This document shows, piece after piece, positions 7,947-28,448 of a stretch of DNA of 64,000 nucleotides; positions within the stretch are counted from its first letter, which is position 1, and each line of letters opens with the position of its first letter. The notes beneath the pieces were generated by a model that had not been told where the DNA came from, did no database searches, and saw only the letters and a list, made by a program, of their open reading frames with translations. The DNA comes from Lysobacteraceae bacterium (GTDB lineage Bacteria > Pseudomonadota > Gammaproteobacteria > Xanthomonadales > Xanthomonadaceae). The position numbers and the translations under genes were made by a program. Location: contig QBLY01000016.1 in assembly GCA_003241895.1 (NCBI GenBank), forward strand, positions 1-64,000, in the 5' to 3' direction.

Positions 7947-9506
7947 ATGGCAGTGATCAAAGAAGGCACGGCCGCGCACATCAACGGCCAGCGCATTGAC
8001 GTGGCGCCCGGCGAGACGCTGCTGCAGGCCGCGCTGCGCCAGGGCATCGCCTTTCCCAACCGCTGCCGCGTGGGCGCCTGCGGCACCTGCAAGTGCCGGC
8101 TGGCCGAGGGCCAGGTGCGCGCGCTGACCCCGCCGGGCTACCTGCTGGACGACGACCAGATCAAGCGCGGCTATATCCTGGCCTGCCAGAGCGTGCCGCG
8201 CAGCGACATCAGCATTGAAGTGGCGCTGGGCGCACCGGCTGCCACCAGCGCGACGGGCAAGATCGCCGCGCCTGCGCCCGAGGCCCCGCGCGAGCCGGCC
8301 GGCTTCTGGGACTACGCAAAGTATTTCGGCTTCCACCTGGTGGGCCTGTCGGCCACGGTGGCGCTGCTGGCCGGCGGCGGTTGGATTACCGCGGGGCTGC
8401 TGGCCATCGTGTCGTTCTACATCCTGGGCGACGCGGTGTCGGGCAACGACCTGCGCACGCCGCGCTACGGCCGCCCTGCCCTGCTGACCGGCCACCTGTG
8501 GCTGGCGCTGCCGCTGGTGTCGCTGATTTCCTTCGCCGCGGTGTGGGGCGTGAGCGCGGGCGATCCGCTGGGCTTTGGCGCGTGGCTCACGTCGTGGACG
8601 GGCTATGACGTGATCGCCGCACGCGAAGCCACCACGCTGGGCCACCATGTTTCGGCCGTGATACTGACGGGGCTGATGATCGGCATGATCGGCACCATCA
8701 CCGCGCACGAACTGATGCACCGCACCTGGGACAAGGTGTCGCTGCTGATTGGCCGCTGGCTGATGGCCTTCAGCCTGGACACCTCGTTCACCATCGAACA
8801 CGTGTACGGGCACCACCGCTACGTTTCCACCACGGTGGATCCCGCCACCGCGCCGCGCGGGCGCAGCGTGTATGCGCACATCGCCATTTCCACCGTGAAA
8901 AGCAACGCCAGCGCCTGGCACATCGAGTGCGGGCGGCTGCGCCGGCAGGGCCTGCCGGTGTGGTCGGTGCACAACGCGGTGCTGCGCGGCTGGGCGATGA
9001 GCGCGGTGGTGCTGGCCCTGGCCTGGGCGGTGGGCGGCGCGGTGGGCCTGGCGTTCTTCGCGGCCTGCGGGCTGATGGGCAAGGCGCTGCTGGAAGTGGT
9101 GAACTACATGGAGCACTACGGCATCGTGCGCGACCCGGCGGCGGCGGTGCAGCCGCGCCATTCCTGGAACACCAACCGCCGCATCAGCTCGTGGACGCTG
9201 TTCAACCTGAGCCGGCATTCGCACCACCACGCGCAGGGCGACGTGCCCTACCAGGATCTCAAGCCGATGGCCGATGCGCCGATGATGATCGGCGGCTACC
9301 TCACGGTGATGGTGCTCACCCTGCTGCCGCCGCTGTGGCATGCGCTGATGACGCCGCGGCTGCTGGCCTGGGACCGCGACTTCGCCGACCCCGGCGAGCG
9401 CACGCTGGCGCGCGAAGCGAATGCGGCCAGCGGCATCGCCGCGCTGGTGCGCGCGGCCAATCAGTCCAGCCGCGGCCAGCTCGAGGCGTCCAGCGTCTCG
9501 CGGTAA
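7947..9506 (+). CDS. Ferredoxin-AlkB fusion (membrane di-iron alkane/fatty-acid hydroxylase)
   Basis: 519 residues from the ATG at 7947 (GGAG nine bases upstream); an in-frame TTG at 7941 is less likely. Residues 1-95 are a plant-type 2Fe-2S ferredoxin with Cys40, Cys45, Cys48 and Cys80. Residues 118-480 are an AlkB-type integral membrane hydroxylase with the His boxes HELMHR (254-259), EHVYGHHR (284-291) and LSRHSHHH (421-428), plus the NYMEHYG signature (386-392). It should hydroxylate a terminal methyl of an alkane or fatty acyl chain, with the built-in ferredoxin replacing rubredoxin as electron donor. No ferredoxin reductase is nearby. The last 46 bases overlap the convergent DUF2189 gene. 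Confidence 0.9.
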   Translation: MAVIKEGTAAHINGQRIDVAPGETLLQAALRQGIAFPNRCRVGACGTCKCRLAEGQVRALTPPGYLLDDDQIKRGYILACQSVPRSDISIEVALGAPAATSATGKIAAPAPEAPREPAGFWDYAKYFGFHLVGLSATVALLAGGGWITAGLLAIVSFYILGDAVSGNDLRTPRYGRPALLTGHLWLALPLVSLISFAAVWGVSAGDPLGFGAWLTSWTGYDVIAAREATTLGHHVSAVILTGLMIGMIGTITAHELMHRTWDKVSLLIGRWLMAFSLDTSFTIEHVYGHHRYVSTTVDPATAPRGRSVYAHIAISTVKSNASAWHIECGRLRRQGLPVWSVHNAVLRGWAMSAVVLALAWAVGGAVGLAFFAACGLMGKALLEVVNYMEHYGIVRDPAAAVQPRHSWNTNRRISSWTLFNLSRHSHHHAQGDVPYQDLKPMADAPMMIGGYLTVMVLTLLPPLWHALMTPRLLAWDRDFADPGERTLAREANAASGIAALVRAANQSSRGQLEASSVSR

Positions 9507-20520: not shown

Positions 20521-21297
20521 TCAATCTTTGGAGGCGGAGGCTAGTATCGATACTTCAGCATCCGTCAGCGCACGCCAAGTGCCCTTGGGCAGCTCGCCCA
20601 AGGCGACGGCGCCGACGGCAGTCCGCACCAGCCGCAGCACGCCCAGTCCGTGGGCGGCCAGCAGGCGCCGGATCTGCCGGTTGCGGCCTTCGTCGAGGAC
20701 GATTTCCAGCCAGGCATTGCGGCTGCCGCTGCGCAGCAGGGTGGCCGACTTGGCGGCCAGGGGCTCGCCGTCGTCCACCACGCCCTGCACCAGCCTGGCC
20801 AGCAGCGCCGGGTCGGGGATGGCGTCCACCTGCACGTGGTAGGTCTTGTCGGGGCCGGTGCCGGGGTCGGTGATGGCCGCGGCCCAGGCCGGGTCGTTGC
20901 TCATCAGCAGCAGGCCTTCGCTGGCCTGGTCGAGCCGGCCCACCGGCGCCAGCCAGGGCAGCCCGGCGTCGGCGAAGCAGGCGTAGACGGTGTCGCGACC
21001 CTTTTCGTCACTGGCCGTGGTGACCAGGCCGCGCGGCTTGTTCAGGGCCAGATAGAGGCGCTGCGCCGCGGCGATGTCGCGGCCGTCCACGGCCACGCGG
21101 TCCACCCCGGGCCGAACCGGGTGCTCGGGGTCGCGCACCACGCGATCGTTGACGGCCACCCGCCCCTCCCGCACCCACGCCGCAGCGTGGGTGCGCGAAC
21201 ACAGGCCCGCCTTGGACAGCACGCGGGCGATGCCGTGGCGGGGTCCGTCGGTGGTCGGGGGCTTGGATGAACGCTGCATCCGCGAAGGATGGCGCAT
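20521..21297 (-). CDS. RsuA/RluB/RluE-family rRNA pseudouridine synthase
   Basis: 258 residues from the ATG at 21297 (GAGGA nine bases upstream); a second ATG lies at 21279. An S4 RNA-binding domain (about 23-70, VLSKAGLCSRTHAAAWV) precedes the catalytic domain with GRLDQASEGLLLMSND, whose Asp is the nucleophile, and EGRNRQIRRLLAAHG near the end. It isomerises a uridine in 16S or 23S rRNA. The sequence does not decide between RsuA, RluB and RluE targets. Confidence 0.88.
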   Translation of the reverse strand: MRHPSRMQRSSKPPTTDGPRHGIARVLSKAGLCSRTHAAAWVREGRVAVNDRVVRDPEHPVRPGVDRVAVDGRDIAAAQRLYLALNKPRGLVTTASDEKGRDTVYACFADAGLPWLAPVGRLDQASEGLLLMSNDPAWAAAITDPGTGPDKTYHVQVDAIPDPALLARLVQGVVDDGEPLAAKSATLLRSGSRNAWLEIVLDEGRNRQIRRLLAAHGLGVLRLVRTAVGAVALGELPKGTWRALTDAEVSILASASKD

Positions 21298-21402
21298 GCG
21301 TAGTTATCCTCGCTAGTCTGCAGCTTGCAGTGCATGCCTGCATACGCCTGCGAATGTGGACGGTTCACCCACCCATCACCGTTGGAAAACCACCATACGC
21401 CC

Positions 21403-22362
21403 ATGCCTGAATCCTCCTCCGACGCCACTACGCCGCCCCTTTGGCGGCGCGCCGTCCGCGCCACGCTGCTCTGGTTCGACACCAGCGCGGTGGCCGCCGA
21501 CGACGGCGACCTCGACCGCATCGACTGGCTGCGCGTGGTGCCGTTCATCGCGCTGCACGTGGCCTGCCTGGCGGTGTTCTGGGTCGGCTTCTCGTGGTTT
21601 GCACTGTGGACGGCGGTGGCGCTGTACGCGGTGCGCATGTTCGCCATCACCGGTTTCTACCACCGCTACTTCGCCCACAAGGCGTTCAAGACCTCGCGTC
21701 CGGTGCAGTTCGCCTTCGCGGTGGTGGGCGCCGCTTCGGTGCAGCGCGGGCCGCTGTGGTGGGCCGCGCACCACCGCCACCACCACCGCCATGCCGACAC
21801 GGCGCAGGACGTGCATTCGCCGCGCCATGGTTTCTTCCGCAGCCACATGGGCTGGTTCCTGACCCGGCGCGGCTTCGGCACCAACTTCGACGGCATCAAG
21901 GACATCGCGCGCTTCCCGGAGCTGCGCCTGCTCGACCGCTTCGACATCCTGGTGCCGGCGCTGCTGGCCGTGGGCCTGTACGCCTTGGGCAGCTGGCTGC
22001 AAGCCGCACACCCGGGCCTGGGCACCAATGGCCCCCAGCTGCTGGTGTGGGGCTTCTTCGTGTCCACCATCGTGCTGTTCCACGCCACGGTCACCATCAA
22101 CTCGCTGGCGCACCGCTGGGGCACGCGCCGCTTCGCCACCCGCGACGACAGCCGCAACAACGCCTTCCTGGCCCTGATCACCTTCGGTGAGGGCTGGCAC
22201 AACAACCACCACCACTTCCCCGGTTCGGCGCGGCAGGGCTTCGCCTGGTACGAACTCGACCTCACCTACCTGGGGCTGCGCACCATGGCCATGCTGGGCC
22301 TGGTGCGCGACCTCAAGCCGGTACCCGCGGACATGCGCACGGCACGCCCGGAATCGGCATGA
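21403..22362 (+). CDS. Acyl-CoA delta-9-type fatty acid desaturase
   Basis: 319 residues from the ATG at 21403; longer in-frame starts are less likely. A membrane di-iron desaturase with the three His boxes HRYFAHK (87-93), HHRHHHRH (about 123-130) and HNNHHHFP (266-273), arranged as in stearoyl-CoA desaturases, with four membrane helices between. It would insert a double bond into an acyl chain, making the substrate needed by the Cfa-like enzymes downstream. First gene of a seven-gene unit; the next gene overlaps it by ATGA. Confidence 0.92.
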   Translation: MPESSSDATTPPLWRRAVRATLLWFDTSAVAADDGDLDRIDWLRVVPFIALHVACLAVFWVGFSWFALWTAVALYAVRMFAITGFYHRYFAHKAFKTSRPVQFAFAVVGAASVQRGPLWWAAHHRHHHRHADTAQDVHSPRHGFFRSHMGWFLTRRGFGTNFDGIKDIARFPELRLLDRFDILVPALLAVGLYALGSWLQAAHPGLGTNGPQLLVWGFFVSTIVLFHATVTINSLAHRWGTRRFATRDDSRNNAFLALITFGEGWHNNHHHFPGSARQGFAWYELDLTYLGLRTMAMLGLVRDLKPVPADMRTARPESA

Positions 22363-23603
22363 AGGTCGCGGTGGTCGGCAGCGGCATCGCCGGGCTGGGC
22401 GCCGCCTGGCAGCTTTCTCGCGAACACGACGTGGTGCTGTTCGAGCGCGAGTCGCGCCTGGGCGGCCATACCCACACCCACAGCGTGGTGCAGGCCGGGC
22501 GCCGCTACGCGGTGGACACCGGCTTCATCGTCTTCAACGCCCAGAACTACCCGCTGCTGACGCGGATGTTCGACGAGTTGGGCGTGGCGTCGAAGGAAAC
22601 CACGATGAGCTTCGGCGTGCACGACGCGCGCAGCGGGCTTGAGTACAACGCCACCGACTTCAACAGCCTGTTCTGCCAGCGCCGCAACCTGGTTTCGCCG
22701 CGCTTCTGGGGCATGGTGCGCGACATCCTGCGCTTCTACCGCGAGGCGCCCGCCCTGCTTTCCCTGGCCGGCGACGGGCCATCGCTGGGCGACTACCTGC
22801 AGCAAAACCGCTATTCGCAGATGTTCATCGACGACCACCTGGTGCCGATGGCTTCGGCGCTGTGGTCGTCGCCGTCGGAGAGCATCATGGGCTTCCCGGC
22901 CAAGTACCTGGCCCGCTTCATGGACAACCACCACATGCTGCAGGTGCAGGGCCGACCGCCCTGGCGCGTGGTGCGCGACGGCTCGTCGAGCTACATCCAG
23001 GCGCTGCAGGCGGCGTGGTCGGTGAAGGTGCGGCTGTCGTCGTCGGTGGCACGGGTGCAGCGCGACGCCGACGGCGTCATCGTCACCACCGACACCGGCC
23101 CGGAGCGCTTCGACCAGGTGGTGCTGGCCTGCCACAGCGACCAGGCCCTGGCGATGCTGGCCGACCCCAGCGACGCCGAACGCGAGGTGCTGGGCGCGAT
23201 GCCCTACCAGGCCAATGAAACCGTGCTGCACACCGACGCCAGCCTGCTGCCGCGCAACCGCAAGGCGTGGGCCGCATGGAGCGCCTACGTGCCGGCCGAG
23301 CCCGGCGCGCCCTGCACGGTGAGCTACGTGATGAACCTGCTGCAGGGCATCGACTCGCCGGAACCCTTCGTGGTGACGCTCAACCGCAGCAAGCACATCG
23401 ACCCGGCCAAGGTGCTGGCGCGCATGCGCTACCACCATCCCGTGTACTCGCACGCCAGCGTCGCGGCGCAGTCGCGGCGGGCGCAGATCAACGGCGTCAA
23501 CCGCACCTGGTACGCCGGCGCCTACTGGGGCTTCGGTTTCCACGAGGACGGCCTGCGCAGCGGCATCGACGTGGCCCGCGGGCTGGGCGTGGCGTGGCCC
23601 TGA
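22359..23603 (+). CDS. FAD/NAD(P)-dependent amine-oxidase-like oxidoreductase of the lipid cluster
   Basis: 414 residues; the ATG overlaps the desaturase stop by 4 bases. The N-terminal FAD motif is [18 protein letters not shown] followed by [16 protein letters not shown], and the C-terminal flavin site is [18 protein letters not shown]. It belongs to the flavin amine oxidase-like group often found beside DUF1365 and Cfa-like genes and annotated as cyclopropane/cyclopropene fatty acid synthesis protein. By analogy with flavoproteins of furan and methyl-branched fatty acid pathways it may oxidise or reduce the modified acyl chain. The reaction is not known. Confidence 0.85.
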
Positions 23604-24367
23604 AATCCGCCATCTACGAAGGCTGGGTCCGGCATCGCCGGGTGTCACCGCGCAGCCACGACTTCAGCTACCGGATCTTCCAGCTGTACCTGGACCTGGC
23701 CGAGCTTGACCAGGTGTTCGCCGGCCGCTGGCTGTGGTCGGTGGACCGGCCGAACCTGGCGCAGTTCCGCCGGCGCGACTATTTCGGCGACCCGTCGGTC
23801 CCGCTCGACACCGCCGTGCGCGATCGGGTGCAGGCCCACCTGGGCCGTCGCCCCGACGGTCCGATACGGCTGCTCACGCACGGGCGCTATTTCGGCAAGA
23901 CGATGAATCCGGTGAGCTTCTACTACGGCTTCCTGGCCGACGGCGAAACCCTGGACTGGATCATGGCCGAGATCACCAACACGCCGTGGGACGAGCGCCA
24001 CGCCTACGTGCTGCCGGTGGACAAGGCCCAGCGCCGCGGCGACGCGCTGCATTGGGACTTCGACAAAGCCTTCCACGTGTCGCCGTTCATGCCGATGCAG
24101 CGCCAGTACCACTGGTCCTTCCAGGTGCCCGGCGAAACGCTGCGGCTGCACATGGACGTGCTGGCCGAAGGCAGCCGCGAGTTCGACGCCACGCTGGTTT
24201 TGGAGCGTCGCCCGCTGGATGCCCACACGCTGGCTTCATGCCTGCTGCGGTATCCCTTGCAAACCGGGAAAATCGCCCTGGCGATCTATTGGCAGGCCGC
24301 CCGGCTCTGGTTCAAGCGCGTACCCTTCCACGACCACCCCGACAGCAAACCCCGGAGTCCCCGATGA
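23594..24367 (+). CDS. DUF1365 family protein
   Basis: 257 residues from a GTG at 23594, overlapping the preceding gene by 10 bases. Matches DUF1365: [21 protein letters not shown] at the N-terminus, [20 protein letters not shown] in the middle and [18 protein letters not shown]. No membrane helix is obvious apart from a moderately hydrophobic segment near 225-240. DUF1365 genes travel with Cfa-like methyltransferases in many proteobacteria, but their biochemical role is not established. Confidence 0.88.
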
Positions 24368-25644
24368 GCAGCCCCGCCGACACCCTGAGCACCCGCACCG
24401 AGGAAGCCGCCCGCTTCGGCACCCTCGACCGCGCGCTGCGGCAGCGCCTGCTGGCCACGCTGGACGGCCTGCAGGGCGGCGTGGTGACCGTTTGCGACGG
24501 CATGGGAACGGTGACCGTGGGCGAGGCCGGCGCCGAGCTGGACGTCACGATGCACATCAACGACCCGGGCTTCTACCGCGCGCTCGCCGCGAACGGCTCG
24601 GTGGGCGCGGGCGAGGCCTACATGGACGGCCTGTGGACCTGCGACGACCTGGTGGGCCTGGTGCGGCTGCTGGTGCGCAACCGCGACCGCCTGGACGCGA
24701 TGGAAACCGGCCTGGCGCGCCTGGGCGGCTGGGCCATGCGCGCGCTGCATGCGTTCAAGCGCAACACGCGCCTGGGCAGCCAGCGCAACATCGCCGCGCA
24801 CTATGACCTGGGCAACGACCTGTTCAAGGTGTTCCTGGACGAGAACATGATGTACTCGTCGGCCATCTTCGCCAGCCCGGACGAATCGCTGGAGGCGGCG
24901 CAGCGCCGCAAGCTCGAGCGCATCTGCCGCAAGCTCGACCTGCAGCCCAGCGACCACCTGGTCGAGATCGGCACCGGCTGGGGCGGCATGGCGCTGTATG
25001 CCGCCAGCCACTTCGGCTGCCGCGTCACCACCACCACCATTTCCAGGGAACAGCACGCGCTGGCGGTCGAACGCATCGCCCAGGCCGGCCTGTCCGACAA
25101 GATCACCGTGCTGTTGGAAGACTACCGGGACCTGCAGGGCACCTACGACAAGCTGGTGTCCATCGAGATGATCGAGGCCATCGGCCACCAGTACCTCGAC
25201 ACCTACCTGGCCAAGTGCGCGTCGCTGCTCAAGCACGACGGCCTGGCCCTGATCCAGGCGATCACCATCGAGGACAGCCGCTACGAACAGGCGCTGGGAT
25301 CGGTGGACTTCATCAAGCGCCACATCTTCCCGGGCAGCTTCATTCCCTGCGTGAGCGCCATCACCAACGCCGCGGCCAAGGCCAGCGACCTGCGCCTGGT
25401 CAACCTGGAAGACTTCGGCCCCAGCTACGCGCTGACCCTGAACCACTGGCGCCAGCGCTTCCTGGGCCGCCTGGACGAAGTGCGGGCGCAGGGCTACGAC
25501 GAGCGCTTCATCCGCATGTGGGAGTTCTACCTGTGCTACTGCGAGGGCGGCTTCATCGAGCGCTCGATCGGCGACGTGCACCTGCTGCTGGCGCGCCCGG
25601 GCAACCGGCGCCCGCAGTACATCCCGGCACCCGAGGCGGCCTGA
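24364..25644 (+). CDS. Cfa-like SAM-dependent lipid methyltransferase lacking bicarbonate ligands
   Basis: 426 residues; ATG overlaps the DUF1365 stop by 4 bases. An N-terminal lipid-binding domain precedes a SAM fold with [15 protein letters not shown]. It is full length compared with E. coli Cfa (382). By my alignment, of the E. coli bicarbonate-site residues Cys139 is Ser166 (MYSSAIF) and His266 is Gln298 (LIQAIT), while Glu239 (Glu271, EMIEAIG) and a Tyr in FGPSYALTL are kept. It probably transfers a methyl to a double bond without normal cyclopropane closure, as in furan or methyl-branched lipid pathways. That is inference. Confidence 0.88.
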
Positions 25645-26193
25645 GTGAATCCGACCTTGCGGCTTGTGGCAAACGTGGTGGGCTACCAGACGGTCTGGGT
25701 GGCCAGCGTCGCCGGAGCGGGACAAGGCCTGGCCTGGACCGGCCCGCTGGCGGCGCTGCTGTTCGTGGCCGCCGTGCTGGCTTTCGGCGGCAAGGCCCGG
25801 CACGACCTGCGCATCCTGGGCATCGCCCTGGCCGTCGGCTTCGTGCTCGACAGCGCGTTCGCGGCGTCGGGCTGGCTGCGCTACGCCGAGCCGATTCCCT
25901 GGACGTTCGCCGCACCAGTCTGGATCTGGTCGCTCTGGGCCGGCTTCGCGATGACGCTCAACCACTCGATGGACTTCCTGCGCGGGCGTCCGTGGGCCTG
26001 CGCCGTGTTCGGCCTGGTGGGTGGCCCGCTGGCCTACCTGGCCGCCGCACGCGCGTTTGACGCGGTCAGCTTCGGCGTCCCGCTGGCCTGGGCCATGGCG
26101 GCGCTGGCGCTCGGCTGGGCGGTGGTGATGCCGCTGCTGTACGCCCTGGACCAACGCCTGGCGTCGCCCCGGCCGCGCAAGGCCGCGGCATGA
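25645..26193 (+). CDS. DUF2878 membrane protein
   Basis: 182 residues from a GTG at 25645, directly after the stop of the Cfa-like gene. Five or six hydrophobic helices. Typical DUF2878 features are the N-terminal NVVGYQTVWVASVAGAG, then LRYAEPIPWTFAAPVWIWSLW and FAMTLNHSMDFLRG. The family is found almost only in clusters with Cfa-like, DUF1365 and DUF1295 genes. Function unknown; a membrane subunit or scaffold for the lipid-modifying enzymes is one possibility. Confidence 0.85.
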   Translation: MNPTLRLVANVVGYQTVWVASVAGAGQGLAWTGPLAALLFVAAVLAFGGKARHDLRILGIALAVGFVLDSAFAASGWLRYAEPIPWTFAAPVWIWSLWAGFAMTLNHSMDFLRGRPWACAVFGLVGGPLAYLAAARAFDAVSFGVPLAWAMAALALGWAVVMPLLYALDQRLASPRPRKAAA

Positions 26194-26972
26194 ACCTCTG
26201 GCTGGCGCTGGCGATCATCTGGCTGGCGTCGGCACTGGGGATGACGGCGCTGTGGGCGTTCTCCATGCGCGTTCGCAACATCGGCTACGTGGACGTCGGC
26301 TGGGCCGGCCTGATGGCGCTGGCGGCGCTGTTCGCCGGCGCGGTGGGCGAAGGCTCGCCGCTGGCGCGCAGCCTGGTGGCGATGTTCGGCGCCGTCTGGG
26401 GCGCGCGCCTGTGCCTGCACCTGCTGCACCGCGTGCTGAACGAAGAAGAGGACGGCCGCTACCGGGCCCTGCGCGAAAAATGGCAAGGCAGCCCTGTGCG
26501 CTTCTTCGCCTTCTTCCAGATGCAGGCGGGCGTGGTGGCGCTGTTCTCGCTGCCCTTCCTGGCGGCGGCCGCCAACCCCGAATACCACGTCAGCGCCTGG
26601 GTGCTGCTGGCCGGCTTGGTGTGGCTGGTGTCGATGGCCGGGGAAAGCCTGGCCGACCGCCAGTTGGCCCGGTTCCGCGCCGACCCCGCCAACCGCGGCA
26701 AGACCTGCCGCGTCGGGCTGTGGTCATGGTCGCGCCATCCGAACTATTTCTTCGAGTGGCTGCACTGGTTCAGCTACCTGCTGCTGGCGATCGGCAGCCC
26801 CTGGTTCTGGCTGAGCCTGCTCGGCCCGGTGGTAATGTTCGCCTTCCTGTACCGGGTCAGCGGCATTCCCTGGACCGAGGCGCAGTCGCTGCGCTCGCGC
26901 GGGGAAGACTATGCCCGCTACCAGCGCGAAGTGAGCGCTTTCTTCCCCTGGCCGCCGCGCCGGGATTCCTGA
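26190..26972 (+). CDS. DUF1295 membrane reductase/methyltransferase-like protein
   Basis: 260 residues; ATG overlaps the DUF2878 stop by 4 bases. Seven or so hydrophobic helices. The C-terminal motif SWSRHPNYFFEWLHWFSYLLLA and the final YARYQREVSAFFPWPPR are hallmarks of DUF1295, related to steroid 5-alpha-reductases and isoprenylcysteine methyltransferases. It may reduce a double bond in a lipid or polyprenoid substrate. In this operon a reductive step on the acyl chain made by the Cfa-like enzyme is plausible but not shown. Confidence 0.88.
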   Translation: MNLWLALAIIWLASALGMTALWAFSMRVRNIGYVDVGWAGLMALAALFAGAVGEGSPLARSLVAMFGAVWGARLCLHLLHRVLNEEEDGRYRALREKWQGSPVRFFAFFQMQAGVVALFSLPFLAAAANPEYHVSAWVLLAGLVWLVSMAGESLADRQLARFRADPANRGKTCRVGLWSWSRHPNYFFEWLHWFSYLLLAIGSPWFWLSLLGPVVMFAFLYRVSGIPWTEAQSLRSRGEDYARYQREVSAFFPWPPRRDS

Positions 26973-26988
26973 TCCACGGAGTCATTCA

Positions 26989-28017
26989 ATGTCACTGATC
27001 GATTTGTGCGAACGCGGGCTGCTGCCCGATGCCCTGACCCGCCTCGGCATCCGCCGCCTGAACGCACAGCGCCTGCGCGATGAAGGCGCACTCGACGTGC
27101 AGGCCGCCGACCAGCGTTTCCGCACGCTGCTCGACGAGCTGCGGCAGAGCCCCATCGCCATCGAGACCGCCGCCGCGAACGAGCAGCATTACGAGGTGCC
27201 GACCCGGTTCTTCGAGCTGTGCCTGGGCAAGCGGCTGAAGTATTCGAGCTGCTTGTATGCCACCGGCAGCGAAGACCTGGACACCGCCGAAGAGGCGATG
27301 CTGGCCCTGTACGGCCAGCGCGCCGAACTGGCCGACGGTCAGCGCATCCTCGAGCTTGGCTGCGGCTGGGGCTCGCTGACGCTGTGGATGGCGCAGCAGT
27401 TCCCGAACGCGCGCATCACCGGCGTGTCCAACTCGCGCACCCAGCGCGAGCACATCCTGGCCCAGGCGGCCCGTCGCGGCCTGGGCAACGTCGACATCAT
27501 CACCTGCGACGTGAACCGGCTGGAGCTGCCCGAGGGCGAGTTCGACCGCACCGTGTCCATCGAGATGTTCGAGCACATGCGCAACTACCAGCACCTGTTG
27601 GGCAACGTGTCGCGCTGGCTCAAGCCGGGCGGCAAGCTGTTCGTGCACATCTTCTGCCATCGCAGCCTGATGTATCCGTTCCAAACCCAGGGCGAAGACA
27701 ACTGGATGGGCCGCTACTTCTTCACCGGCGGCCTGATGCCGTCGGCCGACACCCTGCTGCACTTCCAGCGCGACCTGAACATCGAACAGCGCTGGCTGCT
27801 GCCCGGCACGCACTACCAGCGCACGGCCGACCACTGGCTCGAGAACCAGGACCGCAACCGCGAGGAAGTGATGTCAGTGCTGGTGCAGGCCTATGGCGCC
27901 GCCGACGCGGCCCTCTGGAACCAGCGCTGGCGCATGTTCTGGATGGCCTGCGCCGAGCTGTTCGGCCATGCCGACGGCAACGAGTGGCTGGTGGCGCACT
28001 ACCGCTTCAGCAAGTAG
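26989..28017 (+). CDS. Second Cfa-family methyltransferase, coclaurine N-methyltransferase-like
   Basis: 342 residues, ATG at 26989 with GGAG upstream and only 16 bases after DUF1295. No N-terminal lipid domain. The SAM fold carries ILELGCGWGSLTLWMA. The pair Glu192/His196 in SIEMFEHMRNY has the same four-residue spacing as the catalytic Glu/His of plant coclaurine N-methyltransferases, and LFVHIFCHR plus NWMGRYFFTGGLMPS also match that branch. Cys88 sits in KYSSCLY. It may methylate a small amine or a lipid; its place as last gene of the cluster favours a lipid-linked role. Clearly distinct from the upstream Cfa-like paralog. Confidence 0.85.
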   Translation: MSLIDLCERGLLPDALTRLGIRRLNAQRLRDEGALDVQAADQRFRTLLDELRQSPIAIETAAANEQHYEVPTRFFELCLGKRLKYSSCLYATGSEDLDTAEEAMLALYGQRAELADGQRILELGCGWGSLTLWMAQQFPNARITGVSNSRTQREHILAQAARRGLGNVDIITCDVNRLELPEGEFDRTVSIEMFEHMRNYQHLLGNVSRWLKPGGKLFVHIFCHRSLMYPFQTQGEDNWMGRYFFTGGLMPSADTLLHFQRDLNIEQRWLLPGTHYQRTADHWLENQDRNREEVMSVLVQAYGAADAALWNQRWRMFWMACAELFGHADGNEWLVAHYRFSK

Positions 28018-28028
28018 CGCGCCTGGTC

Positions 28029-28448
28029 TTACTGCTTGGCCGCCGCCGGTATCGCTTCGGCGACCGGTGCAGCCGGCTGAGCGGTGGGCTTTCCGCTGGC
28101 CACGCGGATCCCCTTGGCTTTCATCCACGCTTCGAATTCGTCCGCCGTCATGCGGCGGCCGTTCTGGCTCATGTCGAAGCGCCAGGGGCTGTTGTCGTGC
28201 TGGGTCCTGGGCACGTACGCCGTGCCCGAGGCCGGGGCCGCCGTGGCGGCGGGCGCGACGGCAGGCTGGCGCAGGCGCTGGGTGAATGAAAGCAGGCTGA
28301 CGCAGGTGGCCAGGGCCGGGGCGCTGTGCAGCATCTCGGGCGTTGGCACCGAAGCGGGCATCGGCGCCACCAGCGGCGTACCGCAGGGCGCGGCGGCGAC
28401 GGCAAGCGCCGGCAGGAAGACGATGGAAGCGATTGCGCTGCGGATCAT
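28029..28448 (-). CDS. Small secreted protein with a conserved C-terminal motif
   Basis: 139 residues, ATG at 28448. Signal peptide (about 1-19, VAAAP). A low-complexity Pro/Ala/Thr middle is followed by a well-structured C-terminal part: DNSPWRFDMSQNGRRMTADE, then FEAWMKAKGIRVASG (about 85-118), ending in another Pro/Ala tail. I have an impression of similar tails on other exported xanthomonad proteins but cannot name a family. Convergent with the lipid cluster, 11 bases from its last stop. Confidence 0.65.
   Translation of the reverse strand: MIRSAIASIVFLPALAVAAAPCGTPLVAPMPASVPTPEMLHSAPALATCVSLLSFTQRLRQPAVAPAATAAPASGTAYVPRTQHDNSPWRFDMSQNGRRMTADEFEAWMKAKGIRVASGKPTAQPAAPVAEAIPAAAKQ

Follow-up and report, generated by a model that had tools for sequence, protein, structure and literature searches.

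A seven-gene operon in a Lysobacteraceae bacterium that probably encodes synthesis of a dimethylated furan fatty acid

The DNA analysed here, which we call the window, is a stretch of 64,000 nucleotides (nt) from a Lysobacteraceae bacterium of the order Xanthomonadales (GenBank assembly GCA_003241895.1, contig QBLY01000016.1, positions 1 to 64,000), and this report is concerned with a lipid-modification cluster at positions 21403-28017. Seven co-directional genes lie there on the (+) strand; of the junctions between them, four overlap, one abuts and one is a gap of 16 nt. Their products match, in order, the Pfam families FA_desaturase, Amino_oxidase, DUF1365, CMAS, DUF2878, DUF1295 and again CMAS. 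The first gene (21403..22362) encodes an SCD1-like membrane fatty acid desaturase of 319 amino acids (aa; PF00487, 1e-24; PDB 4ymk acyl-CoA desaturase, 1.8e-27) and overlaps by 4 nt the gene for a 414-aa flavin adenine dinucleotide (FAD) protein of UfaD type (22359..23603; PF01593, 5.6e-26). The latter overlaps the gene for a 257-aa DUF1365 protein of UfaO type (23594..24367; PF07103, 2.2e-80) by 10 nt, if the GTG at 23594, which is our choice, is taken as the UfaO start. A further 4-nt overlap leads to the first of two genes for ‘Cfa’ proteins, an S-adenosylmethionine (SAM)-dependent acyl methylase of 426 aa from the UfaM clade (24364..25644; CMAS, 3.2e-81), which abuts the gene for a predicted membrane protein of 182 aa, DUF2878 (25645..26193; PF11086, 1.4e-38). 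This in turn overlaps by 4 nt the gene for the 260-aa DUF1295 membrane protein (26190..26972; PF06966, 2.4e-68, with a weak match to Steroid_dh, 3.9e-8), and the gap separates the latter from the gene for the second ‘Cfa’, a FufM-type methylase of 342 aa (26989..28017; CMAS, 5.1e-37). A preliminary description of this DNA had named the seven families and claimed five overlapping or abutting junctions, and both statements are borne out, the former by a Pfam match in each case and the latter by the mapped frames.

Furan fatty acids are radical scavengers. The bacterial pathway to them has been demonstrated in Rhodobacter sphaeroides and Rhodopseudomonas palustris as four steps, carried out by the methylase UfaM, the FAD protein UfaD, the DUF1365 protein UfaO and then a second methylase, FufM (PMC7380195), and homologues of all four enzymes are encoded in the window. 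For reference sequences, the FufM of a likely Rhodopseudomonas genome was scanned against named genomes, and CMAS genes were then located in five named Rhodopseudomonas genomes, all of which have a ufaD-ufaO-ufaM trio plus a separate DUF1295-fufM pair. The order UfaD-UfaO-UfaM is the same in the window, and DUF1295 adjoins fufM in both; however, trio and pair lie apart in Rhodopseudomonas, whereas here they stand in one operon with a desaturase and DUF2878. Identity to the Rhodopseudomonas orthologues is 40-44% for UfaD and 39-40% (266-273 bits) for UfaM in the five genomes, and 41-42% for DUF1295 and 48-49% for FufM in four, where the FufM orthologues of strains XCP, 2.1.18, DSM 123 and JA575 stand in for RPA0924. 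Known methyl-branching pairs likewise consist of a Cfa-like methylase beside a flavoprotein, and on that model the methylase and a flavin reductase would make a 10- or 11-methyl, tuberculostearate-like acid and no furan. This we consider extremely improbable, given that DUF1365 sits between methylase and flavoprotein and that all three genes resemble, in both order and sequence, the ufa trio of Rhodopseudomonas.

The two CMAS proteins had been described as two Cfa-type enzymes, of which the family match stands for both, but neither groups with cyclopropane synthases, and their neighbours are UfaM and FufM instead. In a tree of 101 CMAS proteins, drawn by locus out of 246 together with three manual additions (quick search, LG+G4, with support from the Shimodaira-Hasegawa-like approximate likelihood ratio test, SH-aLRT, only), the 48 FufM rows all group on a single branch (SH-aLRT 100), and the 43 UfaM rows near a UfaO gene, including the window protein and the Rhodopseudomonas UfaM, all group on another (SH-aLRT 99); Escherichia coli Cfa and nine other non-cluster proteins fall outside both. 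The window UfaM reaches only 215-220 bits with non-cluster CMAS proteins (36-41% identity), lower than with UfaM. E. coli Cfa has the CMAS family and SAM chemistry in common with these methylases, while branch and active-site residues differ: numbered as in E. coli Cfa, the residues of the UfaM rows are E236 (43/43), A240 (43/43) and Q266 (42/42 scored, with one gap), and the ten Cfa rows invariably have G236, H240, H266 and C139. We take the Cfa active-site residues to include those that bind bicarbonate. The window UfaM has E236, A240, Q266 and S139, and so lacks C139, H240 and H266 of Cfa. Expression of Halomonas ufaM in E. coli led to formation of a furan fatty acid intermediate (PMC12089945). 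The alignment of the second methylase with coclaurine N-methyltransferase 6gkv runs from end to end (2.2e-72, residues 3-342), and FufM has been found to be 38% identical to Arabidopsis AT4G33110 (PMC10940516).

These data bear directly on a reading of the cluster as a cyclopropane locus, in which the desaturase would supply both Cfa-type enzymes for cyclopropanation and the remaining genes would have accessory roles. The CMAS match of both enzymes favours it, as does the published annotation of the Stenotrophomonas maltophilia counterparts as CfaS1 and CfaS2 (PMC11832516). Against it stand the position of both proteins outside the Cfa rows, the lack in the first of all four residues invariant in the ten Cfa rows, and the likeness of the second to coclaurine N-methyltransferase; moreover, neither DUF1365 nor UfaD-type flavoproteins are known to us to take part in cyclopropanation. 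Our prediction is that neither ‘Cfa’ makes cyclopropanes; we regard cyclopropane synthesis by this locus as very unlikely and reject it on tree position and active-site residues.

We consider it likely instead that the seven genes are one operon making a dimethylated furan fatty acid in membrane phospholipids. The preliminary description had proposed that the cluster builds an unusual membrane fatty acid from a desaturated chain, which fits the tests made here, and a dimethyl furan acid is the most likely product because the cluster has a UfaO-family DUF1365 protein and a UfaD-like flavoprotein, and its ‘Cfa’ proteins group with UfaM and FufM. The desaturase would make a cis double bond in the chain, which, by homology, UfaM would methylate using SAM; UfaD would then desaturate the methylated chain again to give a methylated conjugated diene, into which UfaO would insert an oxygen derived from O2, closing the furan ring, and FufM would add the second ring methyl group.

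The gene set is widely kept. Among 61 genomes (the organism's own and 60 relatives), UfaO and FufM are both present in 48 and both absent from 11, one of which (G033) is only 72% complete, with FufM alone in one (G039) and UfaO alone in another (G053); FufM was called by identity (at least 51%, against at most 38% for the other methylases listed), and four fragments at contig edges were counted. Gene order was compared across 57 loci from the same taxonomic order, made up of the FufM loci of 48 relatives, the CMAS loci of seven relatives without FufM, a second piece from G008 and a ChrR-like locus of the own genome. The order des-ufaD-ufaO-ufaM-DUF2878-DUF1295-fufM is complete in 32 of them (one with a split UfaO and two with fufM cut by a contig end), fufM-DUF1295 precede ufaD-ufaO-ufaM in two loci of one family, both lacking a desaturase, and another 16 hold a partial run, a fragment or CMAS alone, or are empty. 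The ratio of nonsynonymous to synonymous substitution rates (dN/dS) against four relatives is 0.07-0.37 across the seven genes, DUF2878 being the loosest, and 0.12-0.20 for the nearby comparison gene kbl against three relatives. Since the order recurs in other families of the order and dN/dS is in this range, the gene set is more than a chance assembly, and the genes are indeed kept together. In a sample of the phylum, FufM-type matches at E <= 1e-60 were found in 33 of 398 genomes, the own genome included. Six FufM loci of one genus, probably Bradyrhizobium (L129, L130, L131, L136, L137 and L138), have neither DUF1295 nor ufa genes in the stretch fetched.

The distribution of FufM also helps to judge whether the pathway might stop at a monomethyl furan acid, with UfaM, UfaD and UfaO running as proposed and the second methylase acting on some other substrate. 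The wider FufM family includes plant alkaloid N-methyltransferases, so substrates vary, and a Legionella lytica plasmid carries FAD-DUF1365-Cfa-DUF2878-DUF1295 in a row, without FufM in the part displayed. On the other hand, the window protein has the identity to R. palustris-type FufM given above, fufM is linked to ufa genes in many lineages, and its co-occurrence with UfaO is near-perfect among the 61 genomes, which leaves a monomethyl product unlikely and the dimethyl acid the preferred reading.

The remaining three genes may be placed around this core. The operon desaturase carries three histidine boxes, read from the sequence as HRYFAH, HRHHH and HNNHH, and we infer that it supplies the cis-unsaturated chain; the known UfaM substrate is cis-vaccenate. 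A second FA_desaturase-family gene lies in the window at 8655-9272 (108 bits, compared with 89 for the operon desaturase). DUF1295 lies on the strand of fufM and within 400 bp of it in 63 of 84 fufM rows (one G039 gene counted twice). Its predicted structure has a pLDDT (predicted local distance difference test) of 84.5, and a fold search returned no match at E <= 0.001, the best being ICMT (0.13) and steroid 5-alpha-reductase (0.17), neither significant; an NADPH-dependent reductase or an accessory protein are candidate roles. An RPA0923 deletion strain of R. palustris is listed in PMC7380195, and RPA0923, next to fufM by locus number, is probably the DUF1295 protein. DUF2878 is, by linkage, a putative membrane accessory.

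A locus of this type has been published in S. maltophilia, where smlt2375-smlt2367, beside rpoEc-chrR-chrA, encode in order a periplasmic hypothetical protein, a desaturase, a FAD oxidoreductase, a hypothetical protein, CfaS2, two inner-membrane hypothetical proteins, CfaS1 and a lipocalin (PMC11832516, 2025). We regard the locus type as known because this gene order matches the window, by order and annotation; the window differs in having no profile match to the first, periplasmic-type gene, the lipocalin, the extracytoplasmic function (ECF) sigma factor or ChrR. The nine genes were up 165-697-fold in a chrR mutant, in RNA-seq performed once, and at or below the wild-type level in a chrR/rpoEc double mutant, and their deletion almost reverted the altered menadione tolerance and ceftazidime susceptibility of the chrR mutant (PMC11832516). 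The authors read the cluster as ChrR-controlled ‘CFA synthases’ for cyclopropane synthesis, and the main text of that paper contains none of the words furan, DUF1365, chromatography and lipidom. On the evidence here the S. maltophilia locus appears misassigned, and the furan reading would amount to its functional reassignment; no report of the operon as a furan locus was found in the open-licence literature, among the matches listed. Acinetobacter plasmid NZ_CP048671 likewise carries desaturase-FAD-DUF1365-Cfa-DUF1295-FufM on one strand, but with no DUF2878 annotated in the run and with a photolyase gene upstream on the other strand. A related Aeromonas cluster has been listed without an assigned function (PMC10012899).

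Furan fatty acid genes are reported to be part of the core sigma-E/ChrR regulon (PMC6852236), and the preliminary description had remarked that the usual ECF sigma/ChrR pair is missing from the window, so that control must differ or lie elsewhere. Profiles built for this analysis indeed gave no match to ECF or ChrR in the window, and ChrR (TIGR02451) is nowhere above cut-off in the own genome, which is 99.65% complete (best 36.5 bits, against 124.5), a difference from the R. sphaeroides and R. palustris pathway. That best match is a 280-residue open reading frame (ORF; G000 C4, L085 5842-6684) with two ChrR-cupin-like stretches, adjoining a short-chain dehydrogenase gene; as a candidate ChrR it was rejected, being below cut-off and with no sigma factor recognised among the surrounding ORFs listed.

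Elsewhere the link is found repeatedly. ChrR is above cut-off in four of the 61 genomes, and in none of the 27 of the window's genus (own genome included); in three of the four (G031, G036 and G053) it stands with an ECF sigma gene beside the cluster, and in the fourth (G056) on another contig. In one member of the window's genus (G002), the cluster adjoins an ECF gene and a ChrR that is split and falls below the cut-off. In three genomes of genus g31 (L111, L112 and L139), ECF-ChrR is divergent from an uncharacterised gene, which is followed by the seven genes and then a lipocalin gene; the window gave no match to profiles of this first gene or of the lipocalin. ECF and ChrR genes are close to UfaD/UfaO-type genes on rhizobial and Azospirillum plasmids, and an ECF gene and an annotated ‘anti-sigma factor’ stand beside DUF1295-FufM on a Burkholderia plasmid. 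An ECF-ChrR link is thus seen again and again in separate lineages, and almost every member of the window's genus is without it, in keeping with control that differs or lies elsewhere; we infer that the link was lost in this genus and not gained elsewhere. An ECF11-type TGATCC -35 element was looked for in the 300 nt upstream of des and not found, either in the window or in its genus, a weak test since most ECF genes of the order have no such motif upstream; TGATCC-N-GTA is present upstream of both ufaD and ECF in L095, L096, L098 and L125, and upstream of ECF in L119.

Some further observations concern loci outside the window. Most of a group of nine, L069 (1849-2640), L055 (2880-3647), L111, L112, L139, L059, L061, L068 and L114, have ahead of the desaturase a protein family of about 250 residues whose start resembles a signal peptide by eye, of which two copies tested had no Pfam match, and whose position matches that of smlt2375. 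L059 and L068 have an ECF sigma gene upstream of the cluster, and ChrR was not detected there; a different kind of anti-sigma factor may be present. Large plasmids of Burkholderia, Rhizobium, Ensifer and Shinella (L093-L096) carry furan fatty acid genes together with ECF-ChrR, or with ECF and an annotated anti-sigma factor; two of the four were typed as conjugative.

The DNA upstream of the window's desaturase offers a candidate for a different control site. In an alignment of 15 rows it is diverged except for CGGTTCAC-N4-CC[AG]TCACCG, which gives the consensus GGTTCAC-N4-CCRTCACCG; in the window this is a 20-bp box, GGTTCACCCACCCATCACCG, at 21362..21381 on the (+) strand, 21 nt before the desaturase ATG. 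A search of both strands of 98 loci (1,451,405 bases) for GTTCAC-N3-6-CC-N-TCAC gave 16 matches, each of them upstream of des, so that the box is found at 16 of 23 same-genus des loci and at none of 22 others. Of ten sites in the own genome at up to two mismatches (six of them listed), one is exact, and the inexact sites are near chance because a reversed-pattern control gives seven. The box may be the promoter or operator through which the operon is controlled in a genome lacking ChrR.

The operon is flanked by a divergent RNA pseudouridylate synthase gene (20521-21297, - strand) upstream and a convergent gene of 139 codons without Pfam match (28029-28448, - strand) downstream; scans of the window for tRNAs and Rfam families gave no match. 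Between the same two neighbours, G002 has an exact box, a DUF1295 in two frames and the last 27 fufM codons (L269, 539-1520), and its ECF-ChrR-type cluster sits elsewhere (L055). It looks as if the genus-type operon was lost there alongside a cluster of the other type, although the frame change in DUF1295 could also be a sequencing error.

A number of points weigh against the interpretation of the cluster as a furan operon, or against parts of it. The furan product of the window organism is a prediction from its genes, and the identity of UfaO to the orthologues of the five Rhodopseudomonas genomes is only about a third (33-37%). The monomethyl acid needs no more than ufaM, ufaD and ufaO in R. 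sphaeroides, and a strain that makes it needs only fufM in addition to make the dimethyl acid (PMC7380195), so DUF1295, DUF2878 and an extra desaturase are dispensable in that organism. DUF1295 is also absent from the gene run in five of the 57 loci (one of which, L075, has a divergent DUF1295 beside the desaturase) and DUF2878 in two (L069 and L070, of G031 and G036), and seven of the 23 same-genus des loci are without the box. The own genome has five desaturase-family matches, that of the operon included. It has no FabA over cut-off (36.9 bits, against 238), but FabA is over cut-off in 31 of the 61 genomes, including the near relative G009. By our reading of the tables fabA presence does not follow the desaturase across these genomes; its absence was dropped as a reason for the desaturase, whose supply role for this reason stays conjectural. 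In wild-type S. maltophilia the nine-gene deletion left menadione tolerance and ceftazidime susceptibility unchanged, and sigma-Ec activation left singlet-oxygen tolerance unchanged (PMC11832516); a simple role in singlet-oxygen defence is disfavoured because of the latter.

Beyond the likely pathway, a more specific picture is possible, though we hold it with considerable doubt: the product may be an undescribed furan acid, for instance a dimethyl furan, shorter or iso-branched, that starts from the chain made by the operon's own desaturase, with DUF1295 and DUF2878 adding a step such as a reduction, a new regulator at GGTTCAC-N4-CCRTCACCG replacing ECF-ChrR, and furan acids serving as a standing membrane component and not as a stress product.

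In the literature that we found, bacterial furan fatty acid synthesis has been worked out in two alphaproteobacteria only. If the furan reading is true, dimethyl furan acids would be much more widely encoded, with a one-operon version outside the alphaproteobacteria that has both methylases and its own desaturase, and the published ‘cyclopropane’ cluster of Stenotrophomonas would be reassigned. The operon would also be a compact cassette for making dimethyl furan acids, and, with its relatives, would allow natural cases of this pathway that have a sigma-E/ChrR system beside it to be compared with cases that have none.

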